From a virus, in IMG/VR virus record IMGVR_UViG_3300030012_004641, positions 1 through 57,321 of that record: a stretch of 57,321 nt of DNA, one strand, 5' to 3'. The notes below the pieces were generated by a model. That model saw only the letters and a list, made by a program, of their open reading frames with translations. It did no database searches and had not been told where the DNA came from. Shown here in pieces: positions 9,132-37,393 of the stretch; position 1 is the stretch's first letter; every line of letters begins with the position of its first letter. The translations under genes and the position numbers were made by a program.

Positions 9132-10427
9132 TTAAACGAATTTAAAAGTCCTATCGTTTAGTAATAAGTCTATATCAGAATAAGTTTTAAATGAATTAGA
9201 CATATCTGTTTTAGATTTAATTTCGATTTTAAATCCCTCATATTCAAAGATACCTATCTCATTTTGATTAATTATATCCTGTATATTTTCTATAAAGGGC
9301 CTAACTTTATTATAATCTATTAAATTAGAGTAATTAAAAGAAACTATAATATCTTCTTTAATACTGTCCGGGGTAGTTTGTATACGTTCTGTAAAATCTG
9401 TAGGGTTAAATAGATGATTAATACTTGCCCAGTGTTCACTAGTATAGTTCCATCTTAAGTTACTATAATAGTGGGCATCAAATTCTGTCTGTTGAATTAA
9501 TTGGGTAATAACATCTTTATTATTTAGATATAATTTTTTACAATAGGGCTCAATGTGTTTAAGTAGATTAAAATCTACGTACCTATCAATATTTATGTTA
9601 AAAGCTATGTTATATACAGGTTTAGGATGATGACCAAAATAACCCCACTTTCTAATAAATCGTTTTAGTTCTTGCATATCCGCCTGCTGTTGGAGTTGGT
9701 TTTTAATTTGGGCTGATTCACTTTCAGATTTAAACCATTCTGCTCCTCTACTAGATACACAAGTAAAATGATATACACAAGCATTCCAAGATATAATAGT
9801 ATCTAAACCATTTTGTTCCATCCTGATAATAGTATCTGAATCTTCTCTAGAACATCTAAATTGGGTATCAAATCCTCCTAAAATATTAATCCATGTAGAT
9901 TTAAATACAGCAAATGGAGCAAAATGACCTATCCTATTAGGACGGTTTTCTTTATGTAATTCATCTACAAATTTATTAAATTCATCATATTGAAATTCTT
10001 CGGGAGTAAGACCAAAATTTTTAATAATTTTTTCGGGAGAACCGGGGTGAAGGGGGGGTTCAATTCGGGCACATGATAAAACAGTATTTTGGTCTATATT
10101 GTTAATAATATGTTTATCAAAATCTTTTCCAACTACCATATCTGATTGTAAGTAACATACTATATCATGGGTAGCTTCATTAAACATAACAGATACATTT
10201 CTTTGACTACCTATAGGAAATCCTGTAGTGTTATTATGGATTTTCATGGTAGGTAAATCTGATTTCATATCAGATAAAGCCTCATAAGTATTTTGATTAT
10301 CAGAATCTATAAATATTAAAATTTCATGATTATTGATATCAGTATGATCTTTTAATGATTTTAAAAGTAATTTAGTGTACTCTTTTTCATTTTTAGCACT
10401 TGCTATACAAAAAGTTATTTTATTCAT
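9132..10427 (-). CDS. Family 2 glycosyltransferase
   Basis: A 431-residue protein with a GT-A/GT2 N-terminal domain. It opens ITFCIASAKNEKEY, has the acidic IFIDSDN strand (about 38-43) and the metal-site variant QSDM (94-97), then EDSD after the GGFD segment. About 180 C-terminal residues have no obvious family. It should transfer a sugar from a nucleotide donor to a glycan or protein acceptor in the cytoplasm. It is the last gene of the island and overlaps the SDR gene by 8 nt. Base composition is clearly AT-richer than in the replication genes. Confidence 0.8.
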   Translation of the reverse strand: MNKITFCIASAKNEKEYTKLLLKSLKDHTDINNHEILIFIDSDNQNTYEALSDMKSDLPTMKIHNNTTGFPIGSQRNVSVMFNEATHDIVCYLQSDMVVGKDFDKHIINNIDQNTVLSCARIEPPLHPGSPEKIIKNFGLTPEEFQYDEFNKFVDELHKENRPNRIGHFAPFAVFKSTWINILGGFDTQFRCSREDSDTIIRMEQNGLDTIISWNACVYHFTCVSSRGAEWFKSESESAQIKNQLQQQADMQELKRFIRKWGYFGHHPKPVYNIAFNINIDRYVDFNLLKHIEPYCKKLYLNNKDVITQLIQQTEFDAHYYSNLRWNYTSEHWASINHLFNPTDFTERIQTTPDSIKEDIIVSFNYSNLIDYNKVRPFIENIQDIINQNEIGIFEYEGFKIEIKSKTDMSNSFKTYSDIDLLLNDRTFKFV

Positions 10428-11211
10428 GTTTTAGGTCTAAATACATTTGTTTAATTCCCTCTTTTACTCCTATCAGGTTAATACTATTATCAGGGTATTT
10501 TTTACCTGTGTAAGGTAAACCTAATGAAGTATCAAATACTTCAACAGGTACTTTATAGTTACTTAACTTATTTATAATATCTGCTATTTCGATTAAAGTA
10601 TAATGGGTTTTATAAGAACATTCAGTTACTTTAGATAAAAGTGATATATTTTCTTCTATATATTTTTCAATTACAGATATTAAATCATCCATATAGAAAA
10701 AGTCCATAAGTTTATTTTGATGAACTATTAAAGGTTTTTTGTTTATATAATTTTTGATATTTGCTTTTATAAATCTCCTATCTAATTCATCCTTATTAAA
10801 TACCGCAAATATTCTTATATTAAATACACCTACTTCGGGTTTAGATAACTCGTGAATAATTTTTTTACTTAACCCATAAGGATCACTAGGATTACCTAAT
10901 TCTGCTCCTGACCCAAAATGTATTAAACGTCCATAACGGTGTCTATTATATAATAAATTATAATACATTTTTATATTTTGGTAGAAGATATCACTACCAT
11001 CATATTCTCGGGTTAATCTATTACCCCCCTTAACAGCTGTATGGATTACTACATCATAACTGTTTGTCTGAAACCATTTATCAGTGGCTTCGCGATTAGT
11101 TAAATCAAAGTCTTTTCTAGTGATTGAAGTAATATCATATTTACCAGATAAATTTTTTAATATACTTTGGGCAATGTATCCATTACCCCCTGTAATTAAT
11201 ATCTTTTTCAT
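10420..11211 (-). CDS. NAD(P)-dependent sugar epimerase/reductase (extended SDR)
   Basis: A 263-residue short extended SDR. The nucleotide-binding glycine motif is GGNGYIA (8-14) and the catalytic pair is Tyr112/Lys116 in YGLSK. The strand VVIHTAVKGG is followed by a segment resembling GDP-fucose synthase and ColC (C3/C5 epimerase-4-reductase). A reductase acting on a GDP-4-keto-deoxy sugar would fit with the Gmd and ColD-like genes in the same island, but this is an inference. It is shorter than typical members (about 300-320 residues). Confidence 0.7.
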   Translation of the reverse strand: MKKILITGGNGYIAQSILKNLSGKYDITSITRKDFDLTNREATDKWFQTNSYDVVIHTAVKGGNRLTREYDGSDIFYQNIKMYYNLLYNRHRYGRLIHFGSGAELGNPSDPYGLSKKIIHELSKPEVGVFNIRIFAVFNKDELDRRFIKANIKNYINKKPLIVHQNKLMDFFYMDDLISVIEKYIEENISLLSKVTECSYKTHYTLIEIADIINKLSNYKVPVEVFDTSLGLPYTGKKYPDNSINLIGVKEGIKQMYLDLKHE

Positions 11212-11597
11212 AATGAATTAACTTGATTAAGGGTTTGGTCCCAACTCTTAAAGCAGATTGCTTTATCATCTATATAAGCAACAGCATTAGGTTTAGTGTA
11301 AGTTATTTCTTCCACATACTGGTTTACTTCATATTTTTCAAGCCATTCCCATATTAATTCTATACCAGTTTTACCATTTATAAGGGGTCTATTAGGATTA
11401 GCCTTACAAGTGTAAATTATTATTCTATATGTTTTAGCTAAATGCTTTATAGAATCTAAAGCCCCTTTTAGGGGTTTACCATATATGGTTCCATCATGGA
11501 ATCCTAAATAGTGATCATGGATAACACCATCAAAATCAATACATAAAACATTTTTTATGTTTTCTTCTACTTCAGTTGTAAATTCTTTTATATTCAT
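11208..11597 (-). CDS. HAD-superfamily phosphatase
   Basis: A 129-residue HAD hydrolase. Motif I is CIDFDGVIHD (nucleophile D21, acid D23), motif II is the Thr of IIIYTCKA, and motif III/IV is the Lys region of YTKPNAVAYIDDKA. There is no large cap domain, so a small accessible substrate such as a sugar phosphate is likely. It overlaps the downstream SDR by 4 nt and the upstream PurF-like gene by 26 nt. It might dephosphorylate an intermediate of the island's sugar pathway, but the substrate is unknown. Confidence 0.75.
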   Translation of the reverse strand: MNIKEFTTEVEENIKNVLCIDFDGVIHDHYLGFHDGTIYGKPLKGALDSIKHLAKTYRIIIYTCKANPNRPLINGKTGIELIWEWLEKYEVNQYVEEITYTKPNAVAYIDDKAICFKSWDQTLNQVNSL

Positions 11598-12846
11598 TTT
11601 TTTCGTAAAAACAACAAGAGGGGTTAAATCCTGTAGGGGTTATAATATTACTAAAAGTATCTAAAGATTGAAAATATATCCCATCAATATCAAAATATGT
11701 AATTAAATCATCTATTAATTTATCTTCACATAACATTTTTCTGTTAGGTTGGAGATTATATATGCATCGTGATATACATGGGGGGCTAGGGATAAAAAAG
11801 TAAACCTTATTAACTTGGGTATGTTTTAATAGTTCACTTACTACTTTTAAAGTAGATCCTGTAAAGATGGCTTCATCTACTATACCTATGGTTTTACTAT
11901 TTACTAAATCTTCTATTAATCCTAATTTAGAAGTGATAAATTGTTTTCTTTTAGCTGAGTTATTTATATCAAAACTTCTCCCCATTTCAGATCGTTTATA
12001 AAAAGCCTCTATATACGGTTTATCTAGAGCAGAAGCTAATCCTTGTGCATAATATTTTCCGGTTTCTGGAATAGGTACAATAGCGTCTAAACTATTGATA
12101 ATATCAGTAGGAATAATAGATTTTAAAGAAGCCCCCAAATTATTCCTCCAGTAAGCAACACTATTATCTTTTACAATCTCGTTTGGCTTTTTCCTATAAA
12201 TTAAATTTAAAGAGCATTTTGATTGAGATAAGGCGTATTTTTTTATTTTATCAAAATTAGGGGTTTTTTTAAAATTATATGTTAGTTTTCCTAATTTGTT
12301 AAAAGATTTAATTATATCTTTAATTACATCATCCGCTAAATGGACTTCATTATTAGGTGAAAAATTTTCATCTAAGTTAAATAAAGGATTTTCTTGGATA
12401 TTAGAATCAACATAAGTGATAAATGAACTAAATTCATAATAAAGATCTTTATCATAATTAAGAGTATCTTTTACAATTTTAATTCTATTAGAAAAGCTTT
12501 TAATATTATACTTAGATATAGATAAATCTTTAGGTATAGACACAAATATAAATTTAGTGCTAGATAGATTTTTTATGATATCTAATAACTTATAAAAGCC
12601 TGTGTCATCTATTTTTAATAATATTTCACTGGTTAAAATAAGAGTATCTGAGTTATAATAGTTTAGCAGGCCTTTGATTCTTTCTAAGTCGGGTACTTCG
12701 TTTATAAAGTCTGTTCTTTTTATTGAGTGATTTCGTTTCACGATTTCGTATAACCTCTTAGAAAATAAAAAGTTTCCCCCAAATAATAAAAATTTATAGT
12801 GTTTAGGTACAAATAACCTAATATCTCTATCTATATTTACACGCAT
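11572..12846 (-). CDS. PurF-like phosphoribosyltransferase without glutaminase domain
   Basis: A 424-residue protein. Residues about 210-420 match the C-terminal half of amidophosphoribosyltransferase PurF: AIVPIPETG (255-263), YKRSEMGRSF (283-292), the PRPP loop VDEAIFTGST (323-332), PSPPCISRC, DIDGIYFQSLD and a final CCF. The N-terminal Ntn-hydrolase glutaminase is absent. In its place are about 200 residues with a Rossmann- or SGNH-like rhythm (LLFGGNFLFS near the start, NNEVHLADDV at 165-174). A purine role seems unlikely in this setting; it may attach a group to phosphoribose within the sugar pathway. Confidence 0.75.
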   Translation of the reverse strand: MRVNIDRDIRLFVPKHYKFLLFGGNFLFSKRLYEIVKRNHSIKRTDFINEVPDLERIKGLLNYYNSDTLILTSEILLKIDDTGFYKLLDIIKNLSSTKFIFVSIPKDLSISKYNIKSFSNRIKIVKDTLNYDKDLYYEFSSFITYVDSNIQENPLFNLDENFSPNNEVHLADDVIKDIIKSFNKLGKLTYNFKKTPNFDKIKKYALSQSKCSLNLIYRKKPNEIVKDNSVAYWRNNLGASLKSIIPTDIINSLDAIVPIPETGKYYAQGLASALDKPYIEAFYKRSEMGRSFDINNSAKRKQFITSKLGLIEDLVNSKTIGIVDEAIFTGSTLKVVSELLKHTQVNKVYFFIPSPPCISRCIYNLQPNRKMLCEDKLIDDLITYFDIDGIYFQSLDTFSNIITPTGFNPSCCFYEKNEYKRIYN

Positions 12847-12849: not shown

Positions 12850-14652
12850 TTATGGTTTAAATTTATTATTTTCCATTTCATCCTTAGGGAGGAAAGGATA
12901 CATATCCTCAAGAGGTGGAGTGTAAAATTTTCCCCCCTCTAAAAGTTTAGATCTAAGTTTAGGTTCAAAATTTTCATCAGGGTTTGTAATTACTTCACAT
13001 ATAACAGGTCCTTCAGTAGAACAAACTTTTGGTAAAATATTTGGTAATTCGTCTGTAGAAGAAATTTTGAAAAACTTAAACCCATAAGCATTAGCTATTT
13101 TTTCAGCTGAAGGGAAGCTAATACCACTAGATTTGTCAGCCCCATAATATCCTTTTTCACCTGCATTGAACATAGATGTTTGGGTTTGTTTTATTGAATG
13201 ATATCCATCATTATTAACCCAAAATAACTTAATATTTAAATCGTTGTGAATAATAGTCTGTAATTCTTGTAGGTTCATTTGTATAGATCCATCTCCCTCA
13301 ATGCATATGGTGTTTTCATTTTTAGGTTTAGCACAAGCTGCTCCTATAGCTGCTGTAATTCCATAACCCATACTAGAAGCACCCGCGTTTGTAAATACTC
13401 TTTGGTTCTCTTTAATTTGAAGGGCTTGTAGTCCAACTACACAAGCCGCTCCATTAGCTAATACTACACTATCAGTGCTGTTTAAATTGTCAGATAAATG
13501 TTTAACAAAAGCATATACACTAGTTGGTGAAGTGTTTTGTAAATGGTGTGGTAACACTACAGGGTATTTATTGTTAATATTTTTGCACCACTTATACCAT
13601 TTAGTAGTATTATTATGAATACTAGATTTAGGGGAATTATTAATTTTAATTAAAAAATCTTTTATGTCTGTACATATAGGATAATTAATATTAATAGTAG
13701 GTTTACTTAACTCTGCAGGATCTATATCTACTGCTATTTTATAAGCATTTTTAGCAAAGTTACCCCAAGCATAGCTGATCTGCCTAATAGATAGTTGGCA
13801 TCCTAAAAATAATACTAGATCGGCGTTTTGGAGTACAAAATTACCTCCCCTATTTCCTATAGTACCTGGGTGGCCAGCATAATATTCATGGTCATCCCAA
13901 ATTAAATCGTTAGAATTCCATTCAGTTACTACGGGGATTTTTAATTTAGAAACGGTTGATAAAAATTCATTATAACTATCACTCATTCTTACTCCATAAC
14001 CGGCTAATATTACAGGTTGTTTAGCTTGGTTAATTTTATCTAAAACATTATTTATTACCTGAGAAGTTGTTTCAGGAGTAAATGAATTTGGAGTAAAATG
14101 GATTAAATCATCCGTATCAACTATCGTAGATTGAATATTAAGGGGAATATCTAACCATACAGGCCCTTTTCTACCACTTGTAGCTAAATAAAATGCTTTT
14201 TCTAAATGATATGCTATATATTTAGGATTAGTGATCATATGAGAATATTTAGTCATATGTTTTACACTATCTATAATATTATATTCTTGAAAACCTAATT
14301 GCCTAAGGGGAAGAGGAGTAGAATCTATAGTAGTATCATGATTCATTTGTCCTGAAATTATAATCATGGGTACTGAATCTAACCAAGCACCTAATACTCC
14401 CGTAATTGCATTAGTAGTTCCCGGACCTGATGTTACACACACTAATCCCGGTTTATCTGATATACGTGTGTATCCCTCTGAGGCCATTGAACATGCTTGT
14501 TCATGATGAGTGTATATGCAATCTATATCAGGATGATTTCCGAAGCTGTCATTTAAATGCATAGCACCTCCTCCAGTGACAGTAAAACATTTATTTACTT
14601 CTTTTTGAGATAAAAAGTTTGCTATGTAATCAGAAATTTTTACTTGACTCAT
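12850..14652 (-). CDS. Acetolactate-synthase-like thiamine-diphosphate enzyme
   Basis: A 600-residue full-length ThDP enzyme of the IlvB/ALS fold. The catalytic Glu is E51 in THHEQACSMASEGY, a TSGPGTTNAITG segment follows, and the C-terminal ThDP/Mg site reads GDGSIQMNLQEL with a later asparagine (WVNNDGYHSIKQ). ALS-like enzymes in surface-sugar clusters can be carboligases: YerE of yersiniose synthesis adds a two-carbon unit to a 4-keto-3,6-dideoxysugar. A similar role fits the ColD-like gene nearby but is inferred. It is coupled to the aldolase gene by a 4-nt overlap. Confidence 0.88.
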   Translation of the reverse strand: MSQVKISDYIANFLSQKEVNKCFTVTGGGAMHLNDSFGNHPDIDCIYTHHEQACSMASEGYTRISDKPGLVCVTSGPGTTNAITGVLGAWLDSVPMIIISGQMNHDTTIDSTPLPLRQLGFQEYNIIDSVKHMTKYSHMITNPKYIAYHLEKAFYLATSGRKGPVWLDIPLNIQSTIVDTDDLIHFTPNSFTPETTSQVINNVLDKINQAKQPVILAGYGVRMSDSYNEFLSTVSKLKIPVVTEWNSNDLIWDDHEYYAGHPGTIGNRGGNFVLQNADLVLFLGCQLSIRQISYAWGNFAKNAYKIAVDIDPAELSKPTININYPICTDIKDFLIKINNSPKSSIHNNTTKWYKWCKNINNKYPVVLPHHLQNTSPTSVYAFVKHLSDNLNSTDSVVLANGAACVVGLQALQIKENQRVFTNAGASSMGYGITAAIGAACAKPKNENTICIEGDGSIQMNLQELQTIIHNDLNIKLFWVNNDGYHSIKQTQTSMFNAGEKGYYGADKSSGISFPSAEKIANAYGFKFFKISSTDELPNILPKVCSTEGPVICEVITNPDENFEPKLRSKLLEGGKFYTPPLEDMYPFLPKDEMENNKFKP

Positions 14653-15653
14653 TTTTTAGATACTTCATATAATTCAGATGCAAATGTTTCGTTAAAGGTA
14701 ACATGTTTGTCTGCGGCTTTAACTTGCATTAAGAGTTTATCTATCTCAGGAAGTGATAAATTTGGTTTATTTAAAAAATACTCAGCATATGATCTGTGTA
14801 TTTGGTTAAATCCTGTAATAGCATATGCGGGCATATATCCCCAAGGGTTAGTTGATTTAATTTGTGATATGGGGTTATCTATAATTTTATAAATACTGTT
14901 TAAATCAAAATTACTATTTTGGGTAATATTCATAAAATTCATAATTAATTCAGTGCATAGATTACCAGGTATTCTGCCCATTCCCAATACTGAAGAATCT
15001 ATATAGGCTTTTCTAGTGCCTATCTTTTCTATAAAACTAGCTGCTAGTGATAAAGAAAGGGATAGATTTTCATGTAAATGTAAACCTATAGCAATATCAG
15101 AACTTACCCAAGAATTAAATAGAGAGAATAATTTATCTAAATCAGAAGGAAATATAGAGCCAAAAGTATCTACAATATAAATCCCTTCCGGTTTGAATTC
15201 ATTAAGTGAAGTAAGTATATTTATTAATTCATCTTCAGTGTAACTTAAGACATTAACCGGATTAAAATAAACTTTATAACCTGCTTCTCTTACTATAGAG
15301 GCTTGTTTTAAGGTTAATTCTAAGTCTTTTTGATGAAAAGCAAAACGTATATTTTTAATATTATTTCCCCCTTCCCCAAATTGAGTTATATCATACCAAT
15401 CGGGTCTAATCATTAAACAATATTCCTGGTTAGGATTTTGAGCGTATTGTTCAGCTTCTAAAGGATTATTAAATAATGTTTGGCTAGATTTATGATTTCC
15501 ATCTTTTAAAAACCCTAATTCTATGAGGTCTACATTTGAAGATTCTAAATTTTTGACTATAGAGTGAATATTTTTTTCACCAAAATCAAAATTATTTACA
15601 TACCCCCCATCTCTTAGAGTACAATCTAAAACTTTAATGTTAGAATTTACCAT
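14649..15653 (-). CDS. HMG-CoA-lyase-like (DRE-TIM) aldolase
   Basis: A 334-residue TIM-barrel aldolase/lyase. It opens with DCTLRDGG (10-17), the divalent-metal and catalytic motif of the HMGL family, and has the metal-binding HLHEN further along. It resembles 4-hydroxy-2-oxovalerate aldolases, but the acylating aldehyde dehydrogenase that partners those is absent. Aldolases of this type occur beside ThDP enzymes in some polysaccharide clusters. It could split or build a pyruvate-derived side group. It overlaps the ThDP-enzyme gene by 4 nt and the dehydratase gene by 7 nt. Confidence 0.85.
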   Translation of the reverse strand: MVNSNIKVLDCTLRDGGYVNNFDFGEKNIHSIVKNLESSNVDLIELGFLKDGNHKSSQTLFNNPLEAEQYAQNPNQEYCLMIRPDWYDITQFGEGGNNIKNIRFAFHQKDLELTLKQASIVREAGYKVYFNPVNVLSYTEDELINILTSLNEFKPEGIYIVDTFGSIFPSDLDKLFSLFNSWVSSDIAIGLHLHENLSLSLSLAASFIEKIGTRKAYIDSSVLGMGRIPGNLCTELIMNFMNITQNSNFDLNSIYKIIDNPISQIKSTNPWGYMPAYAITGFNQIHRSYAEYFLNKPNLSLPEIDKLLMQVKAADKHVTFNETFASELYEVSKK

Positions 15654-16597
15654 ATAAATTTATTTTTATAGTATTTAATTATACTTTGTAATTCATTGTC
15701 AAAATTTGCTTCAGGTTTCCAACCTAATTTCCTTAGCTTAGAATCATCTAAAGCATATCTTACATCTTGCCCTTTTCTGTCAAAGGATGTATCAATATAC
15801 GAACTATAATCAACATCTCCAAAATATTCTTTAATTATCTTCTTTACAGTTGTAATATTAGGTTGTTCAAATCCTCCTGCTATATTATAAATTTCATTGG
15901 TAGTGTTTGATTCTATTATAGTGATAATAGCATTTGCTGTATCTTGAGCATGGAGCCAATTTCTAACAGGGGTTCCATTATTATGTAAAGGGATTTTTCT
16001 ACCAAGTTTAAGATATTTACATGATTTAGGAATCAGTTTTTCAACATATTGTCCTATACCATAATTGTTAGTAGGTCTAACTATTATATATGGTAACTTA
16101 TATGTACGAGCCCAAGCTAATACTAATTGATCAGCAGCTGCTTTAGTAGCTGAATATGGATTACTAGGATGAAGAAGATCAGTTTCTGTATGAGCTCCTG
16201 ATTCTATATCCCCATAAACTTCATCTGTACTGAAGTGAATTAGGGTAGGGATTTGGCTGTTTTCCTGTCTATAGTTTCTGATTAATTCTAATATATTATG
16301 TACACCATTTACATTGGAATGCACAAAATCGTCACTATTAGCAATACTATTACCCACATGAGTTTCAGCAGCCGTATTAATGATATAATCACAATCGTAT
16401 AAAAATTCTAAATCATTTATATCACAATGTACAAATGAAAAATTTGGGTATTGGTTAAACTCATCTAATAAATGTTTATTAGCGGCATAAGTTGTTTTAT
16501 CAACTCCTTTAACATACCATCCTTTTTCAAGGCAAGTTTTAGTGATGTAAGATCCTATAAATCCTAAACATCCAGTTACGTATACTACTTTTGTCAT
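15647..16597 (-). CDS. NDP-glucose 4,6-dehydratase-like protein
   Basis: A 316-residue extended SDR of the RmlB type. The glycine motif is TGCLGFIG (8-15), the dehydratase acid pair lies in STDEVYGD (D125-E126), and the catalytic motif is Y148-x3-K152. ARTYKLPYIIVRPTNNYGIG follows, and the C-terminal WKPE is also typical. The expected reaction is NDP-hexose to NDP-4-keto-6-deoxyhexose with NAD+. The nucleotide (dTDP or another) cannot be read from the sequence. It overlaps the GT11 gene by 4 nt. Confidence 0.87.
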   Translation of the reverse strand: MTKVVYVTGCLGFIGSYITKTCLEKGWYVKGVDKTTYAANKHLLDEFNQYPNFSFVHCDINDLEFLYDCDYIINTAAETHVGNSIANSDDFVHSNVNGVHNILELIRNYRQENSQIPTLIHFSTDEVYGDIESGAHTETDLLHPSNPYSATKAAADQLVLAWARTYKLPYIIVRPTNNYGIGQYVEKLIPKSCKYLKLGRKIPLHNNGTPVRNWLHAQDTANAIITIIESNTTNEIYNIAGGFEQPNITTVKKIIKEYFGDVDYSSYIDTSFDRKGQDVRYALDDSKLRKLGWKPEANFDNELQSIIKYYKNKFIW

Positions 16598-17475
16598 ATT
16601 TTATTATCTATATTATTCCAGTTAGAGGGATAGTAATTTCCATTAATCCATGAAGATTCATGTTGGGGATGGAGGAAATAAGTGGGGCATACTATTTTTT
16701 TATCAGGATTTTTACCTAAATAAGCACCCCACCACGAATAAGAACTATTAGCAATAATGTGGTGATCACATAAATTAAGGAGGGCTAAATCTTCTTTTTC
16801 AGAGTCAGTACATATCTTTTCACCACCTATAGGTTCAACAAAAAATATATTATCTCCACTAAACATACGTTTAGTATAATTTATATCATTAGAAAAAACT
16901 ATAAAATTATAATCTTCTATAGGACTAAAATATTCAGTAATTGCTTTAATATAATAGTCAAAATCCCTATCAAGAGGACAAAAAGCATATTGGGGTAATA
17001 AATAATCTCCTCTTCTTACATGAATGCTTACAGTGGGTTTATCTCCTAATTGGGATTTAATTTGATTCATCCTTTCAATTGCTTGGGTTTTTAAGTAATT
17101 TTTAAATTCCCACTTAGCAATTTTATCTCCAATGGTATTGTACCAGTAAGTATATAGGTCAAATCTTCCTACTAAATTATAATTTCCTTTAGGGTTTAAA
17201 GGGAATAGAGTAGTATCATAAGTAGTAGTATGGAAATTAATATCTTTATCTATAAAACCATTAAAAAATTCTTCTTCTTTAATAGAAAAAGTATTATCTA
17301 ATTCAAGTAAATCAAATATTCTAATACCTACACCGTTTTCTTCTATCATTTTTTTAGAAAAAACAACATCCATATTATTATGTTCGGCTACTGCTAATAA
17401 ACTAGCATATATTTGTAGTTGGGAGCATAATCCCCCTGAACCACCCATATTACTAAGAGTTAAGTAGTTTTTCAT
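16594..17475 (-). CDS. Alpha-1,2-fucosyltransferase-like (GT11)
   Basis: It carries the GT11 signature H-x-R-R-G-D-Y (HVRRGDY) in its centre and the later ISNSSYSWWGAYLG-like segment (here IANSSYSWWGAYLG), with an N-terminal GGLCSQLQIYASLLA. These enzymes use GDP-fucose or a related GDP-6-deoxyhexose, consistent with Gmd directly upstream. I take the ATG at 17475, which overlaps the Gmd stop in ATGA (293 residues), rather than an upstream in-frame start at 17496. An intracellular enzyme is inferred. Confidence 0.88.
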   Translation of the reverse strand: MKNYLTLSNMGGSGGLCSQLQIYASLLAVAEHNNMDVVFSKKMIEENGVGIRIFDLLELDNTFSIKEEEFFNGFIDKDINFHTTTYDTTLFPLNPKGNYNLVGRFDLYTYWYNTIGDKIAKWEFKNYLKTQAIERMNQIKSQLGDKPTVSIHVRRGDYLLPQYAFCPLDRDFDYYIKAITEYFSPIEDYNFIVFSNDINYTKRMFSGDNIFFVEPIGGEKICTDSEKEDLALLNLCDHHIIANSSYSWWGAYLGKNPDKKIVCPTYFLHPQHESSWINGNYYPSNWNNIDNKI

Positions 17476-18449
17476 TTTTGGTAGTAATTTAACCAATATT
17501 CAGCCATTTCTTCCATCATTTCTTTAAAACTATATTGTGGTTTCCACCCAAGTTCTGTTCTGATTTTAGTTGAATCCCCTCTAAGGTAAGGGAGTTCTTC
17601 GGGTCTAAGGTATTTAGGGTTTTGAACTACATAATCTTTATAATCTAAACCTAGGTAACTAAATACTAGTTCACACATTTCTCTAACTGAATGGGTTTCC
17701 ATAGTTGATACTATCCAATCTCCAGGCTGATCATGTTGTAACATTAAATGCATTGCCCTAACATAATCATATGAATGGCCCCAATCTCTATATGAATCCA
17801 TATTACCTAATTCGAGTTTGTCTTGTAGACCTAATTTAATTCTTGCTGCTGCTTTAACTACCTTATTGGTTACAAAATTAGATCCGCGGCGTGGTGATTC
17901 ATGGTTAAATAGAATCCCATTAGTAGTGTGTAAACCATAAGCGCGTCTATAGTTTCTTACTATATTATACCCAAATACTTTAGAGCACCCATAGGGGGAT
18001 ACAGGATTCATTGGGGTAGTTTCACGTTGGAAGTTATCTTCTTCTACAGATAATCCAAACATTTCAGAACTACTCGCTTGGTAAAATTTTGCATTAGGGC
18101 AAGATCTACGATATGCTTCTAATATATTTAAAACCCCAATAGCGTTAGTTTGTACTGTAAATTGGGGGATATCGAAGCTAATTCTAACATGGGATTGGGC
18201 TGCTAGATTATAAATCTCATCTGGTTGGATTTGGTCTAACAATTTTTCTAATCCCCCCTGATCTAATAGATCCCCGTAATGAGTATGGATTTTTGAATGA
18301 ATTTCTGATATTCTTATATCCTGGTTTTCAGGGGTGGAATTTCTTCTAACAGTACCATGTACTTCATATCCTAAATCAAGTAAGTGTTCTGCTAAATAAG
18401 AACCATCTTGACCATTTATACCTGTAATAAAAGCGGTTTTTTGTTTCAT
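17472..18449 (-). CDS. gmd: GDP-mannose 4,6-dehydratase
   Basis: A 325-residue Gmd. The start reads KTAFITGINGQDGSYLAEHL, then SSSEMFG, the catalytic YGCSK, NHESPRRG and DWGHSYDYVRAMHLMLQ, all highly characteristic. It converts GDP-mannose to GDP-4-keto-6-deoxymannose, the branch-point for GDP-fucose, perosamine, rhamnose and colitose. No GDP-perosamine or canonical fucose-synthase gene is obvious. The ColD-like enzyme and the SDR at 10420 are the likely downstream steps. It overlaps both neighbours by 4 nt. Confidence 0.95.
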   Translation of the reverse strand: MKQKTAFITGINGQDGSYLAEHLLDLGYEVHGTVRRNSTPENQDIRISEIHSKIHTHYGDLLDQGGLEKLLDQIQPDEIYNLAAQSHVRISFDIPQFTVQTNAIGVLNILEAYRRSCPNAKFYQASSSEMFGLSVEEDNFQRETTPMNPVSPYGCSKVFGYNIVRNYRRAYGLHTTNGILFNHESPRRGSNFVTNKVVKAAARIKLGLQDKLELGNMDSYRDWGHSYDYVRAMHLMLQHDQPGDWIVSTMETHSVREMCELVFSYLGLDYKDYVVQNPKYLRPEELPYLRGDSTKIRTELGWKPQYSFKEMMEEMAEYWLNYYQK

Positions 18450-19165
18450 CTAGTTTGCAAATAAGGATCTATATTATTTATGCGGTGAAGTTGTGTGTTT
18501 TCATAATCACCTACTTTTCTTTTTTTAACTATATTAGGATCAGAAGTTGATTCAAATATATAACCTGTATGATAGGTGTTTTTAAAAATATCCATTTGAG
18601 TTAAATCGGGCCAATCTTCTAATTTCCACTGGTGTGGTTTGGTTTTAATAGCATTAGGTAATTTATCTAAACCTAACTGTGCTGTTTCGGGTGTCATATA
18701 ATAGTGGTAGCCTATAGTATCTATATTTTGGCTTCTCCATGGTATATCTGGTAATCTGCCATCATAGGACATTTTTTTAAGTTGTAAAGCAGCTTCTTTA
18801 TTATCTGTTAGTATAATACCTCCCCTACCAAGAGCCAAATGTTTTCTATATTGGAAACTAATATTCATAAAGGTTCCTTTAATATAGCTATTGGGTTCCC
18901 ATAAAACAGCAGCATCAATTATATTAGGAGTCAGATAGTAATAATTTTTCCAGTTTTCATCTTTCCAATTTAACCTTAGATTTAATTTTTTAGCTAAAAA
19001 TGGAATAGATAAATAGGTTCTTTTAGGTACATTTATAGAATACACAGGATCATATCTAAGACATAATTCTACACCATGTGTACATGAATCTACAGCTATA
19101 GCAAAAGGGGCACCAAAAAATTCTGCTATTTTATTTTCGAATATTTTTACTGTTTCAAAGCTCAT
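18446..19165 (-). CDS. Compact DegT/DnrJ/EryC1-type PLP protein
   Basis: At 239 residues this is far shorter than the usual 370-400 of sugar aminotransferases. Core landmarks remain: an N-terminal glycine/hydroxyl region (AVDSCTHGVELCLR), D84 in the NIIDAA strand for the pyridine ring, and Lys108 in SFQYRKHLALGRGG as the PLP Schiff-base residue. The C-terminal small domain is reduced, and the final 60 residues look unrelated. It could be a minimal sugar aminotransferase or a non-catalytic binding protein. Confidence 0.7.
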   Translation of the reverse strand: MSFETVKIFENKIAEFFGAPFAIAVDSCTHGVELCLRYDPVYSINVPKRTYLSIPFLAKKLNLRLNWKDENWKNYYYLTPNIIDAAVLWEPNSYIKGTFMNISFQYRKHLALGRGGIILTDNKEAALQLKKMSYDGRLPDIPWRSQNIDTIGYHYYMTPETAQLGLDKLPNAIKTKPHQWKLEDWPDLTQMDIFKNTYHTGYIFESTSDPNIVKKRKVGDYENTQLHRINNIDPYLQTR

Positions 19166-19587: not shown

Positions 19588-19998
19588 TTAATTAATAAAT
19601 TCTTTATCTAATTTTTGTCCTTCATAAGGTCCAGTTTTATACTCATATACTAAAGTATCATCTTCTAAAATTTCGTAAGTGTGGCCTCCATATAAAGTAA
19701 AACTAGCATCTCCGGGTTTTAATATAGGTTCAGCAATTATAATGTCATTTAAATCATAAAGTTTACATTTAACACTACCCCTAATTACTACCCAAGATTC
19801 TTGGGCTATTTGTTCAGGGTAATGTCTATCTTTTACGATGTGTTTATGGGGTGGAAAGGTTTTTCCTTTTTCCATTCTCAATGTTGCACATTGTAAAAAA
19901 TTATTTTCAGGTATTACTTCTTTCCTCCCATGAAACTCATGGATTCTATTTACCACATGTAATAATCTACCATCAACTTTTGAATATATTTTTTCCAT
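19588..19998 (-). CDS. Cupin-fold protein
   Basis: A single-domain cupin of about 136 residues. The first motif region is FPPHKHIVKDRHYPEQIAQE, with metal-site His candidates and Glu, and the second motif is DASFTLYGGHTYEIL. Cupins in sugar clusters are often epimerases, isomerases or dTDP-sugar binding proteins. I chose the ATG at 19998, one nucleotide after the upstream stop, over an in-frame GTG at 20016. A role in the island's pathway is inferred. Confidence 0.75.
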   Translation of the reverse strand: MEKIYSKVDGRLLHVVNRIHEFHGRKEVIPENNFLQCATLRMEKGKTFPPHKHIVKDRHYPEQIAQESWVVIRGSVKCKLYDLNDIIIAEPILKPGDASFTLYGGHTYEILEDDTLVYEYKTGPYEGQKLDKEFIN

Positions 19999-19999
19999 A

Positions 20000-21163
20000 T
20001 CAAACCCTTTCTGCACTATTTCTCATACTAATATATTCTTTAATCTTATCACAAACATGATCTACATCTTCAAGAGTCATGCCGTGGTGGGCTCCTAACA
20101 AGAATCCGTTTTTCATTATTAAATCAGAATTTTTAAAATCCTGTAAGTATTCTCTATAAACTGGGTGACGTGTTACGTTACCAGCAAATGTGACTCTAGT
20201 TTGGATATTCTGTTCTTCTAAGTATGTTAATAAGTCTAATCTGTGTTCATATTGGAGGGGGACTGCTAACCAATTAGGTTTAATACTATCATCAGGGAGA
20301 ATTAGTTCTTTTACTTCTTTAAGGTTTTTAATATAACGTTCAATATTAGCTCTCCTAATATGTTCAAACTTTTTAAAACGTTCTAATTGTACTAAACCAA
20401 ATGCAGCTTGCATTTCAGTTGATTTCATATTGTAACCTAAAACACCATATAAAAACTTATAATCATAGGGAATGCCATCAACATCGTGGTTAAAACGATC
20501 AGACATATCTTCTGAGTTATCCCCTATTCTACCCCAATCTCTAAATTGGAGGCAAACATTGCGAAGTTTTTCATCATTAAACATTACCATACCCCCAGCT
20601 CCGCCAGCAGTAATAACGTGTGATGCATAGAAACTAGTAGTAGCGATATCTGTTTCTTCAGTATATGTTACTGTGTCAGCTGAGTCTTCAATTAACACTA
20701 TGTCTTCTCTACCCATAGCTTTTAAACCGTCTTTTAAAGCTTTCCAATCCGGTTTATTTCCAATAAGATTAGGAATCATAAGTGCTTTTACGTCATCATC
20801 AATAGCATCTAATACTTCTTGAATATTAGCGCAATATGATGTGAGATCTACATCCACAAATACAGGAATAAGTCCTAATTGGATAATAGGGGCTAATGTA
20901 GTTGAAAACGTACATGCCGGAGTAACTATTTTAGTACCTTTAGGAAGTTGTAAACTAGCTAAAGCAAGTAAACATGCAGCAGATCCCGAATTAACGAATA
21001 CTCCATATTTTTTACCAAAATACTTTGCTATTTTTTCTTCAAATTCAACTGTACGGGGGCCAAATCCTGCTAACCAGCCATCTCTAAGGCAAGCTTCTAC
21101 GGCTTTAATTTCTTCTTCCCCATATGCTTCAAATTTATTAGGGGCATACCATATCTTTTTCAT
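20000..21163 (-). CDS. ColD/RfbH-like sugar 3-dehydratase (PLP/PMP type)
   Basis: A 387-residue DegT-superfamily enzyme. Its C-terminal half resembles RfbH/E1 and ColD (LGYNMKSTEMQAAFGLVQLE, then TRVTFAGNVTRHP). The PLP ring Asp is D160 in IEDSAD. At the usual Schiff-base lysine it has His182 (SFYASHVITAGG), the hallmark of 3-dehydratases such as ColD and E1. E1's Fe-S cysteines are absent, which favours the ColD type acting on GDP-4-keto-6-deoxymannose. It would yield a 3,6-dideoxy-4-keto sugar from Gmd's product. Confidence 0.83.
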   Translation of the reverse strand: MKKIWYAPNKFEAYGEEEIKAVEACLRDGWLAGFGPRTVEFEEKIAKYFGKKYGVFVNSGSAACLLALASLQLPKGTKIVTPACTFSTTLAPIIQLGLIPVFVDVDLTSYCANIQEVLDAIDDDVKALMIPNLIGNKPDWKALKDGLKAMGREDIVLIEDSADTVTYTEETDIATTSFYASHVITAGGAGGMVMFNDEKLRNVCLQFRDWGRIGDNSEDMSDRFNHDVDGIPYDYKFLYGVLGYNMKSTEMQAAFGLVQLERFKKFEHIRRANIERYIKNLKEVKELILPDDSIKPNWLAVPLQYEHRLDLLTYLEEQNIQTRVTFAGNVTRHPVYREYLQDFKNSDLIMKNGFLLGAHHGMTLEDVDHVCDKIKEYISMRNSAERV

Positions 21164-31074: not shown

Positions 31075-31803
31075 TTATTGATTTTGATTTCTTACAAGAT
31101 AATAATTACTTTCTAGGTCTCCAAATTTAAATATAAAAGACATTAATCCTTTTGGATTTATATCCATCCAACCTAATTCAAAGCGTTTATTATGTTTAAA
31201 TATTTCTTTAACTAAATCTGCATTAAAAGGTATATTGTCTAATTTTACTTCAGCACTACCATCCTCTATATGAGCAGCAAATGATACTGAATTAGACGTA
31301 CTATTTCCTATGGTGAATTTTACTTCAGGTGAAGTAAACCCATCTTGGGTAGAAACATAAAACACTTCTTCGCCCACTGCGTCTTTAGATTTAATAAAAC
31401 GTGTAGTAAATTCTTCAGTTAATTCCACATGAATATTACCTTCTGTTTTATTAATGGAAGGAACATTAGGAATAACTTGTGGATCAGCAAGATTAAATGA
31501 TAAATCCATTGCTGTGTCACCTACTTTAAATCTAGCAGGTGTACCACCTTCTTTTTGTACTTCAAACATAACTTCATTCTCAAGGATTCCTAACATTTTA
31601 CTTAAAGTAGATGTGCTATAAATTCCAAATTCGCCTATAGGGAATTGGAAATTTTTAGATACTACACTACCTACTAGGTTTTGAGAATCATTTATAAAGT
31701 CTGCTTTAAGGGATTCCTTATCAGAAACCCACTTAACTCTTTCAATAGTACCACCTAAGTGATATTTTAAAATAAATTGGTCTATAACTCTTTTATCTGT
31801 CAT
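31075..31803 (-). CDS. Sliding clamp (gp45-like)
   Basis: A 242-residue protein of gp45 size and layout: an N-terminal KYHLGGTIERVKWVSDKESL, then LMG-type alternating strands, a central hinge (PQVIPNVPSINKTEGNIHVE) and a C-terminal ELGWMDINPKGLMSFIFKFG. It should form a homotrimeric ring that tethers the family B polymerase. Its position beside polymerase, clamp loader and chaperonin supports this. It overlaps the polymerase C-terminal gene by 1 nt. Confidence 0.85.
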   Translation of the reverse strand: MTDKRVIDQFILKYHLGGTIERVKWVSDKESLKADFINDSQNLVGSVVSKNFQFPIGEFGIYSTSTLSKMLGILENEVMFEVQKEGGTPARFKVGDTAMDLSFNLADPQVIPNVPSINKTEGNIHVELTEEFTTRFIKSKDAVGEEVFYVSTQDGFTSPEVKFTIGNSTSNSVSFAAHIEDGSAEVKLDNIPFNADLVKEIFKHNKRFELGWMDINPKGLMSFIFKFGDLESNYYLVRNQNQ

Positions 31804-32729
31804 TAGAATGAAAAAAATGTGTTAACATGTGTATTGAGTGTCAAATTACCCCAATCAAGGTCTTTGTAAAATGACTCTAGTTTATTTTTAAGGATTGAAT
31901 CAAAGGCTTTTTCTCTGTCAATATACATTTTTATGAATTTACGGATTTCTTCTGGAAAATCAAAATCCAAAAACGCCATTGTGTCAATCTTATAAGGATT
32001 ATCTTTTAGATAAACCCATTTAATTTTATCGCCCTGAACGATTTGTGAGTGTTTCTTATCTAGGCCCTTAAATTTAAGGAAATCATTATAACGAACAGCT
32101 GCTTTAACGTTTACGGGGGCTCCTGTTTTAAGTGTAGTAAATATGTTTCCCGCGCCTGGGGGACGCTCAATATACTTTTTTATGTCTTTTACTCCTGTTG
32201 GTTTACCAAGCATTTCGAGTGGTAGGGTATCTAGACTATTTTTAAATTCTAGAATTTCCTGATCGATTTCATTTCTTGTAGCGCCAAATAGGATTTTATT
32301 AAGTATTTCGTTAAAAAACTTTTTAAACAATGGTGGAAAATTTGATTTCATAAAATCAAGTCCCTTAACGTCAATATCTTCTACTTTAATACCTTCTTTT
32401 TTTGTGATATACTGAGCGTATCTTCTTTTACCAGAAAAAAAACCTGAACGGATAGTACATTCTGTTTTCATTTCAAGTCTGTGTTCTTGAATGTTGAATG
32501 CATCTCTAGCCAATGTATCGTAATATTCTGTGATTAAATCCTGGTATTTAAGGGCCATTTTTTCAAGCAGATTGTCTTTTTTACCCTCATCCATTTCGTT
32601 AAAATCAGGATATAAATGTCTGAGTAGTGGCTCAGCGTGGAAATAGTTTGAATCAGTATCTACATAAGTGCAGAAGTTTTTATCCTCTGATTTACAGATC
32701 CACCATGGTACTTCTTCTTGATTACTCAT
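31803..32729 (-). CDS. Family B DNA polymerase, C-terminal part (split gp43)
   Basis: A 308-residue ORF. It carries motif C, YVDTDSNYF (residues 22-30, catalytic D24 and D26), then the thumb region and the C-terminal clamp-binding tail ending VNTFFSF. It lacks motifs A and B, which are in the upstream ORF, and the two overlap in ATGA. The split falls between the motif B helix and the motif C hairpin. Both pieces must associate to give an active polymerase. Confidence 0.9.
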   Translation of the reverse strand: MSNQEEVPWWICKSEDKNFCTYVDTDSNYFHAEPLLRHLYPDFNEMDEGKKDNLLEKMALKYQDLITEYYDTLARDAFNIQEHRLEMKTECTIRSGFFSGKRRYAQYITKKEGIKVEDIDVKGLDFMKSNFPPLFKKFFNEILNKILFGATRNEIDQEILEFKNSLDTLPLEMLGKPTGVKDIKKYIERPPGAGNIFTTLKTGAPVNVKAAVRYNDFLKFKGLDKKHSQIVQGDKIKWVYLKDNPYKIDTMAFLDFDFPEEIRKFIKMYIDREKAFDSILKNKLESFYKDLDWGNLTLNTHVNTFFSF

Positions 32730-34441
32730 AATTCTAATTTTAATTCGCCTCGTAATACTTTATTCATGTGTGTATTTGCAAATAAAGCTGATTCTTGAAT
32801 AATTCGCTGACCCGTAAGTGTAATACCTTCGGATAAAATAACACTACCATATCTAAAACTTGGTAGAGCGGTTGCACCATAAAGTGAGTTAAGCAAGATT
32901 TTCATAGTGTATTGTTTTAAATGATTTAATTCACCTTCTTTTTTATTACCACTTTTATAAGCCGTTTTCATTGCTTTTTTATATCTAACTCGTTCATCAA
33001 ACCAAGTATCAAGTATAACAGATAGTGCTGATTTTTTATCAGTTCTAAACATAACACCATTTGCTGTAACAGCAAGGTTATGGGTTTTGATTTTATCTAC
33101 TATGTCCTTAACGGGCACATATTGTTGTTTACGTTGTAGATTTTCAACAGGTACTGTTTTTTCGGGGTCCTCGGCGACCATAGCTTCTAAATCGTTTAAA
33201 CCCAATCTATTATTTCTATCATCAAATAAATCTAACACTCTACCAACATATGTTTCTTTACCAATGTTAAGAGACATAATGATCGAAGGATATAGTGATG
33301 TAAGATCTTCATCAAACATATAGTTGTAAATACCTGTTTTAGGGCAGAATAGATAACCGCCAGCATAATTTTTCTTTGTTAGTGGGTTTAAATCCTTATT
33401 AGGTGGAATAATATTTTGGGATAATAACCAACCAGAAATAGCTCCATCTTGAATTTTAGAAGATAAATATACTTCTTCATATAATACTTTTCCTTTATGA
33501 GCAAGATTTTTAGTTAAGTCAATATACTGGAATTTTTCATCTAGCTTTTTAAGAATTAAAACATCAACAAAGTTATATTCAATAAATTTTTCTTTATCCT
33601 CGGTAAATAATCTATCAAGTGACCCTTCATATTCAATTTTCTTCTGATCTACATATTTTTCACCTAATGCATCTAACTTAAATGATGGTTCGTCTTTAAA
33701 ACTATACTTTTTATGCAAACGCATATAATCAAGAGAACTAACCCCTGCAATTTTAATAGGTACATCTTCATTCCATGTTTGTTCCTCTATAATATTAATA
33801 GGTGAAAGACGTTTTGCTGTACGGTCACCCATAGTATTTTTAATTCTGTAGTAGAGATATGGAATATCGAAATAATCACTATTATAACCCACAAGGATAT
33901 CAGGTTGTATTTCTTCCATCATCCTAATGAATAGATCTAATAAATCTGTTTCTCGTTTTACAGGGATTACTTCTCGTCCTTGTTTATCAACTGTTTGTTC
34001 AAGTTTTCCTTCTTTATCTACAATGATGATTTTCCAATCGTCTAATTGACGATCCCACCATGCGATTGAGGTAACTGGTTTAGGTGCTTGTTTAATATAG
34101 TCTGGAGTCAAGGCACCCCCCATTTCAATCTCAATATCGAAAAATACTTCCCTGTGGGTAACAGAAGGAGTATCATCATCACCATACTTATCAAGTAAGA
34201 ATTTAGTATGGATGTTTCCTTTAGTATGGTCAGAGTAGTGCATATGGGGATTTTCTCTATCCCAGTTAAATACTTTTTTAAGATTTTCTCCCTTTAGACC
34301 TTTATGGGTCGCTTGGGATTCAGGACACTCTTGATAACCATAATTTTGGAACTCTTCTTGAAGATACCCTTCGTCAGTCCATAGGTGTATCCGGTAATGA
34401 TTCCACTCATCACCTCTTTGAACATAACAATTTTTATACAT
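32726..34441 (-). CDS. Family B DNA polymerase, N-terminal part (split gp43)
   Basis: A 571-residue ORF with the 3'-5' exonuclease and the first half of the palm. Exo I is FFDIEIE (D102, E104), Exo II VGYNSDYFDIPYL, Exo III YNFVDVLIL, motif A DLTSLYPSI (D380-D384 region) and motif B KILLNSLYGA (514-523). It stops after GELKLEL, followed by an overlapping ATG for the C-terminal gene. Together the two parts give 879 residues, close to T4 gp43 (898). No homing nuclease lies at the junction. Confidence 0.93.
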   Translation of the reverse strand: MYKNCYVQRGDEWNHYRIHLWTDEGYLQEEFQNYGYQECPESQATHKGLKGENLKKVFNWDRENPHMHYSDHTKGNIHTKFLLDKYGDDDTPSVTHREVFFDIEIEMGGALTPDYIKQAPKPVTSIAWWDRQLDDWKIIIVDKEGKLEQTVDKQGREVIPVKRETDLLDLFIRMMEEIQPDILVGYNSDYFDIPYLYYRIKNTMGDRTAKRLSPINIIEEQTWNEDVPIKIAGVSSLDYMRLHKKYSFKDEPSFKLDALGEKYVDQKKIEYEGSLDRLFTEDKEKFIEYNFVDVLILKKLDEKFQYIDLTKNLAHKGKVLYEEVYLSSKIQDGAISGWLLSQNIIPPNKDLNPLTKKNYAGGYLFCPKTGIYNYMFDEDLTSLYPSIIMSLNIGKETYVGRVLDLFDDRNNRLGLNDLEAMVAEDPEKTVPVENLQRKQQYVPVKDIVDKIKTHNLAVTANGVMFRTDKKSALSVILDTWFDERVRYKKAMKTAYKSGNKKEGELNHLKQYTMKILLNSLYGATALPSFRYGSVILSEGITLTGQRIIQESALFANTHMNKVLRGELKLEL

Positions 34442-35796: not shown

Positions 35797-36756
35797 TTAG
35801 TAGATTAAAGATTTCATGTCTGCAATAGAAACATGTTTATTAAAACCATGTTCTACCCCCTTAGTAATTACTGCGATTGCATCGTGTGAGTGGAGGCTTT
35901 CATTATGTGAAGCAATGATTTTAAAGTCTAAAACTCGTTCTTCAGCATCAAATTGTTCAAATAACAATCTAACAGCATCTTCTACAAACTTAGTATTTGC
36001 GGCATTCAATTCAGCAAATGCTTGTTCATCTTCTCTTTTAACAAATACTTGTGTTTCTGTTTTAAGTGCTTTAAGGCACATTTCTTGGATATCTTCAATC
36101 CAGATAAAGTCTTTTAATTTAAGTGAAATACGAGCAACTGAACGTTGTGAGTGAGGGGTTGCATATTGATTTCTTTCTTCAAGTGCATGTAAAGCAAGTT
36201 CAGTAGAACAAGGACATGTTGAAGAATATACATAATCAAAATGGATATATTTATTAAATTTACCGCTTTCTTTTAGTAACGATTCAAGTGTAACCTTGTA
36301 ATATTGCCAACCACCATTTTTATTACCTTCAGCATCTACAGAACGCATTGACTCTTGCCATAGTCTATAGTTGAAACTAATTTGGATATGAGCTCCGTAT
36401 GAGCCGAGGCGTTCTCTATATCCTAAAAGTACTTTTTCAAGTGTATCAAGTGAGAATGTTTCATCTTTGTACTCATAAAATGTTCTGATAATACGAGACA
36501 TATTAATACCTTTATTTACACCTTCAAGAGATACAGTGCCAATTACAGAAGCTTCAACTTCCATAATACCACCATTTTTCATTTGGATTTTAAGTGGTAA
36601 TCTAAAATTAGATATACCTACTCGTTCAATACCAACTTTAGATCCCTTAATAGTATCCCCATTTTGGAGGTCAGGCATTGATTTTAAATACTCCTTAGTA
36701 GGAGTAAATTCATAATCATACGTGTGATTAAATTTTTGTGTATCTATTACTTTCAT
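35797..36756 (-). CDS. folE2: GTP cyclohydrolase IB (FolE2 type)
   Basis: A 319-residue type IB GTP cyclohydrolase, which makes 7,8-dihydroneopterin triphosphate from GTP, the first step to 7-deazaguanines. The metal-site Cys is in SSTCPCSTELALHAL (C181/C183), followed by HSQRSVARISLKL (H202), with E186 nearby. The C-terminal VLDFKIIASHNESLHSHDAI is also conserved. It overlaps the HPRT gene by 4 nt and lies with QueE, QueC and QueD, indicating a complete pathway in the phage. Confidence 0.9.
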   Translation of the reverse strand: MKVIDTQKFNHTYDYEFTPTKEYLKSMPDLQNGDTIKGSKVGIERVGISNFRLPLKIQMKNGGIMEVEASVIGTVSLEGVNKGINMSRIIRTFYEYKDETFSLDTLEKVLLGYRERLGSYGAHIQISFNYRLWQESMRSVDAEGNKNGGWQYYKVTLESLLKESGKFNKYIHFDYVYSSTCPCSTELALHALEERNQYATPHSQRSVARISLKLKDFIWIEDIQEMCLKALKTETQVFVKREDEQAFAELNAANTKFVEDAVRLLFEQFDAEERVLDFKIIASHNESLHSHDAIAVITKGVEHGFNKHVSIADMKSLIY

Positions 36757-37265
36757 ATTGTATAAATAGTGCTTAAATTTCTGTTGTGTCCTTTGTCATC
36801 GTCCATACCATAACCAATATACCAAGGATCAAATATAGTATCGACATCTTGGTATAATATATGAAGGACCTTATCAAAATCCACACTTTCTTTGTAAATT
36901 GCCGCTACTGGAGTCATAGATTTAGGATCTTTAACTGAAAGGAATTTCATAACTGCTTTCATAGTATTTCCAGAATCAACAATATCATCTACAAGATAAA
37001 CGTGTTTGTTTTTGATTTTAGTTTCTAGGTCTTTAGATACAACCATATCACCTTGTTTTCTGCCATAATATGATTTACAGCGAATAAAATCAAGTTCAAC
37101 AGGTATAGTGATTTGTTTTACTAAATCGCTAAAAAACATAAATCCTCCATTTAGGATACATACCATTACTACCGGGGTAGGATCACCTCTGTGAGCATCG
37201 TTTATCTGTTTAGCTAAGATTTTAATCTTAATATCTAAGTCTTTTTCACTTATTGCCTTTTCCAT
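36753..37265 (-). CDS. hpt: Hypoxanthine/guanine phosphoribosyltransferase
   Basis: A 170-residue type I PRTase: VVMVCILNGGFMFFSDLVKQ, then LDFIRCKSYYG and the PRPP loop VYLVDDIVDSGNTMKAV. All are typical of hypoxanthine PRTase. It could recycle guanine or hypoxanthine, including guanine released by base exchange in DNA, to GMP/GTP for the deazaguanine pathway. That coupling to DpdA-like base exchange is an inference from gene order. It overlaps FolE2 by 4 nt. Confidence 0.93.
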   Translation of the reverse strand: MEKAISEKDLDIKIKILAKQINDAHRGDPTPVVMVCILNGGFMFFSDLVKQITIPVELDFIRCKSYYGRKQGDMVVSKDLETKIKNKHVYLVDDIVDSGNTMKAVMKFLSVKDPKSMTPVAAIYKESVDFDKVLHILYQDVDTIFDPWYIGYGMDDDKGHNRNLSTIYTI

Positions 37266-37393
37266 CCTTCTTCTATAGTTGTTTTTAATTTATCTATTAA
37301 TTCTTCTACTTCATCCGGTTCCATAGTTACAGCACAACATATACAAACATTTTCTCTTATTTCTTCTAATATTTCAAGTGCTTGTTCTTTCAT
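37250..37393 (-). CDS. Small acidic protein with Cys cluster (47 aa)
   Basis: A 47-residue ORF beginning MKEQALEILEEIRENVCICC, with three cysteines in CICC and an acidic helix (MEPDEVEELIDKLK). Its start overlaps the QueE stop (TAATG at 37391-37395), and it overlaps hpt by 16 nt. It lies inside the deazaguanine operon, so a metal- or Fe-S-related accessory role is conceivable. No homolog was recognised. Confidence 0.55.
   Translation of the reverse strand: MKEQALEILEEIRENVCICCAVTMEPDEVEELIDKLKTTIEEGWKRQ

Follow-up and report, generated by a model that had tools for sequence, protein, structure and literature searches.

A candidate phage pathway to C4-branched 3,6-dideoxyhexoses that includes a cysteine-less, E1-like 3-dehydratase

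Genes at the locus and their phage context

The window, by which we mean the whole 57,321-nt stretch of viral DNA that was analyzed, carries at 20000-21163 a reading frame for a 387-aa protein of the DegT/DnrJ fold. It belongs to a run of genes on the minus strand, which contains the following features:

9132..10427, minus: GT2 glycosyltransferase that follows the SDR gene; may be the transferase of the pathway product
10420..11211, minus: SDR, orthologous to the reductase that follows every type of ThDP enzyme; proposed ketoreductase of the new branch
11208..12846, minus: small HAD-like protein and PurF-like phosphoribosyltransferase, encoded between the genes for the ThDP enzyme and the SDR; HAD homologue in 4 of 80 related loci
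12850..14652, minus: ThDP-dependent carboligase, YerE/JanthE-like (8rph, 381 bits; next best, 220)
14649..15653, minus: HMGL-type aldolase (closest solved structure, at 90 bits: 3dxi, a 'putative aldolase'); proposed source of the alpha-keto-acid donor
15647..16597, minus: NDP-glucose 4,6-dehydratase, RmlB-like (TIGR01181, 307 bits); commonest partner of the 3-dehydratase
16594..17496, minus: GT11 (fucosyltransferase family); travels with Gmd
17472..18449, minus: Gmd, GDP-mannose 4,6-dehydratase (397 bits; curated cut-off 415)
18446..19165, minus: short DegT/DnrJ-fold protein, 239 aa, Lys present
19588..20016, minus: 142-aa protein overlapping the end of the 3-dehydratase gene; cupin-like by eye, with a homologue nearby in 6 loci
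20000..21163, minus: candidate 3-dehydratase, ATG to stop, 387 aa
21160..24948, minus: GT2, a 152-aa protein and two glycosyltransferases of GT1-like type; part of the phage core, located upstream of the slot and shared in synteny with Flavobacterium phage immuto

No nucleotidyltransferase gene was found in the window. The PurF-like protein (11572-12846, 424 aa) lies inside the sugar cluster, and none was seen in the 80 related loci.

These loci come from a scan of IMG/VR that returned 148 relatives of the dehydratase, and neighborhoods were read in the best 80 of the 148. They are metagenomic contigs with mechanically called ORFs, some of them truncated and some redundant, and because of the near-duplicates, p-values for co-occurrence are inflated. 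The relatives share a phage core that includes a clamp loader, GroEL, PDDEXK, two GT1 and GT2. The isolated Flavobacterium phage immuto (Immutovirus) presents GroEL, o350, PDDEXK, GT1, GT1, a small protein and GT2, followed by a DegT-fold gene in the slot; however, its slot protein is only 23% identical, and within the stretch of immuto that was read there was no close RmlB-like relative and no ThDP gene. Since this isolated phage matches the core order, the host of the 57,321-nt virus is likely a member of the Bacteroidota.

A His-type protein without iron-sulfur cysteines

The 387-aa protein contains the motif SFYASHVITAGG, and its His182 occupies the position of the PLP lysine of DegT/DnrJ aminotransferases. 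By alignment, His182 corresponds to His220 of E1 (3bcx) and His188 of ColD, and the Lys-type sugar aminotransferases recovered in the same search carry Lys at the equivalent site. This histidine is unchanged in 81 of 81 viral homologues, none of which has lysine at the Schiff-base position, as are Asp160 (the aspartate facing the pyridine nitrogen) and the SGS phosphate loop, and 181 positions are invariant across the 81 sequences. Where E1 has its cysteine loop, DCYCAPGCDNTCKKRF, the viral protein has DWGRIGDNSEDMSDRF, in which there is no cysteine. These results agree with the original prediction, which had described a sugar dehydratase with His182 in place of the PLP lysine and without the Fe-S cysteines of E1. 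As a His-type protein that lacks these cysteines and, by His182 and the tree described below, is no aminotransferase, the product is best read as a PMP-dependent NDP-4-keto-6-deoxyhexose 3-dehydratase of a Cys-less, E1-like clade, which would act in a 3,6-dideoxysugar step. A further cysteine, Cys64, lies beside the SGS loop and is invariant in the 81 viral sequences.

The viral clade lacks a 'GxxYxGxxxGxxG' stretch (approximately residues 164-172) that is kept in E1, ColD and the bacterial Cys-less relatives, and the missing segment is near the active site. Together with the DegT-fold fragments in these phages (18446-19165) and the finding that SpnQ, when its reductase is absent, can act as a transaminase (PMC8987622), this deletion could mean that the His protein does something else, e.g., that it is an aminotransferase-like or regulatory PMP/PLP protein whose viral clade has lost a conserved stretch. 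We consider this very unlikely, given the invariance of His182, Asp160, the SGS loop and the 181 positions. Furthermore, among viral loci the 3-dehydratase (73-87% identical) is accompanied by a linked 4,6-dehydratase that is equally conserved (67-86%), whereas the core genes are nearer 50%. The short DegT/DnrJ-fold proteins themselves (18446-19165 and locus L124, 15113-15757) have kept the Lys and lost much of the fold, and a homologue is present in phage immuto.

The protein scored 250 bits against Pfam DegT_DnrJ_EryC1, far above chance, and its best NCBIfam model was RfbH (NF011936), at 270.8 bits and below the cut-off of 423. Among solved structures, E1 was the best match by sequence (212 bits, 36% identity), ahead of ColD (2gms; 137 bits, 28% identity). 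An AF2 model (pLDDT 83) was weak around the cofactor loops, with values below 50 at residues 180-183 and over most of 211-244. A Foldseek search with this model placed E1 top by E-value, on a fold that by itself cannot separate Lys-type aminotransferases. The E1 and ColD active sites were compared through the alignment and the fold score, the model being poor at exactly those loops.

In a tree of 32 proteins, the His-type enzymes fell into three groups, set apart from the Lys aminotransferases, which formed a separate clade (100/100). The first group contains ColD and a protein of cyanophage ACG-2014f; the second contains the Fe-S enzymes E1/RfbH and two cyanophage-type proteins that have kept three cysteines; the third is Cys-less (100/99) and contains the viral proteins along with bacterial and archaeal relatives. 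In the best tree, the Cys-less clade joined E1/RfbH (94/87, not starred), with ColD and ACG-2014f outside, and a joint clade of Cys-less proteins with ColD had an AU p of 0.22. A search for ColD orthologues in Bacteroidota, which might break the long ColD branch, returned RfbH types alone. The ColD type that had been favored originally thus gives way, on the higher E1 scores by sequence and fold and on the tree (subject to the same AU value), to a predicted third, Cys-less clade of His-type 3-dehydratases that is neither ColD nor Fe-S E1.

The two cyanophage-type proteins of the second group, from Synechococcus phage S-H68 (L114, 8854-10149) and AG-345-D19 (L115), carry these cysteines within an extended loop, GCYCVGQQNLLSNGVCGRRF, and are possibly Fe-S enzymes in cyanophages.

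The non-viral members of the Cys-less clade are found mostly beside CDP-glucose-type genes. Those of Palleronia and Leisingera adjoin annotated rfbF and rfbG; on S. meliloti pSymB and in a DPANN archaeon, the adjoining ORFs are nucleotidyltransferase-like and dehydratase-like. These neighbors point to 4-keto-6-deoxyglucose as the substrate. A Bacteroidetes relative (L085/L117) did not inform on function because its surroundings contain no sugar genes. A scan of genome contigs, using patterns whose reach is limited to close relatives, found two of these, one in a Pacearchaeota MAG and one in a Bacteroidetes MAG. In the Pacearchaeota contig (L082, 8865-10966), which has secD/secF-like genes, a virus-type 3-dehydratase (75-76% identical) is paired with an RmlB-like gene; this pair may reflect either transfer between virus and archaeon or a binning error.

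Partner genes across the viral relatives

Two 4,6-dehydratases in the window could supply the 3-dehydratase. The product of 15647-16597 missed the RmlB cut-off (307 against 365 bits), and scored 74 and 58 bits with the CDP (TIGR02622) and GDP (TIGR01472) models, respectively. Five genes separate it from the 3-dehydratase here. Across the viral loci, a gene of this type (at least 60% identity) was present in 44 of 80; in 27 it was the next gene downstream, and most of these pairs overlap by 4 bp. Gmd, as originally stated, does lie in the same gene run (17472-18449), and it was near the 3-dehydratase in only 7 of the 80 loci. All five loci with a close GT11 gene had Gmd, which probably serves GT11 rather than the 3-dehydratase; on co-occurrence across the 80 loci, it was rejected as the partner of this enzyme.

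These counts bear on a GDP-colitose-type route, in which Gmd would make GDP-4-keto-6-deoxymannose, the His protein would carry out a ColD-type removal of O3, and the sugar would be completed by the SDR at 10420-11211. This is the route that the original prediction had Gmd feeding. His without Fe-S cysteines is indeed the ColD arrangement, Gmd is close by, the AU test allows a clade with ColD (p 0.22), and the SDR has a weak N-terminal likeness to GDP-fucose synthase (37.6 bits). We nevertheless regard the route as improbable, since E1 outranks ColD by sequence (212 versus 137 bits) and fold E-value, the bacterial Cys-less relatives adjoin CDP-glucose genes, Gmd tracks GT11 (7 of 80 loci, versus 44 of 80 for the RmlB-like gene), and the SDR comes after ThDP enzymes wherever it was found. 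These linkages of Gmd and the SDR do not support a colitose pathway in the window.

The SDR, which the original prediction suggested could be ColC-like, has an orthologue in 46 of the 80 loci. Each of the 46 has exactly one type of ThDP enzyme: YerE/JanthE-like in 26, split transketolase (TK) in 17 and PDH-E1 alpha/beta-like in 3, as typed with Pfam and NCBIfam and, for the split TK, by structure match. Because it keeps this company in 46 of 46 loci, the SDR is probably not ColC. TPP and TK genes occurred together in 0 of 80 loci; one truncated locus without the SDR (L050) has a PDH-like pair plus a YerE-like gene. At least 12 changes of ThDP type were placed on the dehydratase tree, and the pattern is therefore not a single ancestral arrangement. 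Ketone acceptors are known for no ThDP superfamilies other than these three (YerE/JanthE-like, TK and PDH-E1-like), and the TKs that are candidates for such chemistry are encoded by split genes (PMC12247030).

In the window, the ThDP slot holds a 600-aa TPP protein that matches JanthE (8rph; PMC12188165) over its full length (residues 3-595). JanthE outscored 5ahk for this protein and all 32 of its viral relatives (33 of 33). A host-type acetolactate synthase was rejected as its identity because the JanthE score is much higher. From gene linkage, the enzyme would join an acyl group to the keto-deoxysugar. Tblastn against deposited phages recovered mostly host-like AHAS and nothing close among YerE-like enzymes, and our search of the open-access literature found no report of YerE-like, split-TK or PDH-like carboligases in phage sugar clusters.

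At its start the HMGL aldolase gene overlaps the stop of the 4,6-dehydratase gene, and at its other end it runs into the beginning of the ThDP gene. The protein scored 65 bits with the 4-hydroxy-2-oxovalerate aldolase model (cut-off 286), as a diverged relative would. Donor-type genes, tallied as genes that make alpha-keto acids and, in some loci, a 3-dehydroquinate-synthase-like gene, were present in 21 of 32 YerE-like loci versus 0 of 21 TK or PDH loci. Those found beside YerE-like genes included acetaldehyde dehydrogenase (DmpF), 4-hydroxy-2-oxovalerate aldolase (DmpG) and ketopantoate hydroxymethyltransferase (PanB), all above NCBIfam cut-offs, as well as an HpcH-like aldolase and a NeuB-like synthase (Pfam).

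Could the 3-dehydratase here make an unbranched 3,6-dideoxyhexose, with the ThDP, aldolase and SDR genes serving another sugar of the same glycan? The window does have another sugar module (Gmd-GT11). In addition, 27 of the 80 loci, many of them truncated, have no ThDP gene in the stretch covered, and some of these pair the dehydratase with another reductase (c107 or SDR34), so that the dehydratase also appears to serve unbranched routes. For the window we consider such a product unlikely, because the dehydratase is paired with a ThDP enzyme in all 46 SDR loci through at least 12 switches of type, and because the 3-dehydratase step would yield the very compound published as the acceptor of YerE.

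The proposed pathway and related systems

We propose as the probable function of these genes a phage-encoded, modular pathway to a C4-branched 3,6-dideoxyhexose of the yersiniose/erwiniose type. From the residues, families, tree, gene linkage and TPP/TK exclusivity that were observed, we infer the substrates, the order of steps, cofactor recycling and the destination of the sugar, as follows. The RmlB-like enzyme would convert NDP-glucose, probably the dTDP-glucose of the host, to NDP-4-keto-6-deoxyglucose. On the 3-dehydratase, PMP would form a Schiff base at the 4-keto group, His182 would deprotonate PMP at C4', and the hydroxyl at C3 would be eliminated. Most likely, hydrolytic release of the product and recovery of PMP from glutamate, as in ColD (PMC8987622), would then give NDP-4-keto-3,6-dideoxyglucose. 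Next, the YerE-like enzyme would decarboxylate an alpha-keto acid, perhaps supplied by the HMGL aldolase, and attach the resulting acyl group at the C4 ketone to form a tertiary alcohol. Finally, the SDR would reduce the branch ketone, and a glycosyltransferase would attach the sugar to a glycan, either on the host surface or on the virion. YerE adds acetaldehyde to CDP-3,6-dideoxy-4-keto-D-glucose (PMC12247030), and in other branched octoses an acyl branch at C4 is known to be reduced (PMC4753412).

A ColD-like release and recycling is the simplest assumption, because the protein has no Fe-S cysteines and no plant-type [2Fe-2S] ferredoxin motif, as expected of an E3-type partner, was found in the 80 loci; this was a motif search, which a different reductase would escape. 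An E3-type ferredoxin partner was rejected on that result. On Fe-S-free RfbH, the literature yielded one general review and nothing specific.

Compared with the Yersinia CDP-4-keto-6-deoxyglucose 3-dehydratase E1/RfbH, the viral enzyme is alike in sequence, fold and the histidine at the Lys site, and its substrate is probably also a 4-keto-6-deoxyglucose; it differs in having no Fe-S cysteines, no 164-172 stretch and no E3 reductase that we could find, and its partner 4,6-dehydratase is RmlB-like instead of RfbG. With ColD it has in common the histidine, the lack of an Fe-S cluster and, likely, the glutamate and hydrolysis chemistry, but it is only 28% identical, forms its own clade in the best tree (AU p 0.22 for a joint one) and is not linked to Gmd. 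With this enzyme one could examine whether 3-deoxygenation of the E1 type can proceed without an Fe-S cluster.

The order of enzyme classes (4,6-dehydratase, 3-dehydratase, YerE-like ThDP enzyme, reductase) is that of the yersiniose/erwiniose pathways of YerE, ErwE and JanthE. Since the donors of ErwE are 4-hydroxy-2-oxo acids (PMC12247030), the viral genes for such donors fit ErwE. In contrast to those pathways, the proposed one is phage-encoded, an RmlB-like enzyme replaces CDP-glucose dehydratase, and the ThDP slot may instead be occupied by a split transketolase or a PDH-E1-like pair.

That phages carry sugar genes is well established, and branched-chain nucleotide sugars occur in O-antigens and antibiotics. 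Published marine viral AMGs include genes of the rfbH/ascC/ddhC type (PMC10653327), and a 2025 review named viruses only as a possible source of such ThDP enzymes. A colitose-type pathway in a phage had been thought new, but at the gene level deposited cyanophages already carry a colitose-like set: Synechococcus phage ACG-2014f (KJ019105; L116, 3966-7083) has consecutive genes for Gmd, a GDP-fucose-synthase/ColC-type SDR, a His-type, Cys-less, ColD-like protein and GT11. Like the window, this row is a phage-borne instance of a His-type 3-dehydratase; unlike it, the set is colitose-like, with a protein that groups with ColD and adjoins Gmd and the fucose-synthase-type SDR. We found no open-access paper that names the row colitose-like.

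We give about an even chance to a broader proposal, namely that widespread immuto-related phages run a combinatorial branched-sugar pathway, with an Fe-S-free E1-type dehydratase, a slot for three unrelated ThDP carboligases and swappable donor genes, making a different branched nucleotide sugar in each phage. If so, a constant maker of the keto sugar with exchanged carboligase and donor genes would amount to a natural library of carbon-branching enzymes, which would include split transketolases as candidate ketone users, and would suggest strong pressure to diversify the sugar of the host surface or virion.

Elsewhere in the window, 35797-39052 encodes FolE2 (GTP cyclohydrolase), a phosphoribosyltransferase, a radical SAM protein and QueC in series, which probably form a 7-deazaguanine (preQ0-type) route; phages use such routes for DNA modification. 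At 31803-34441, the signal of a family B DNA polymerase is divided between two neighboring ORFs (571 and 308 aa).
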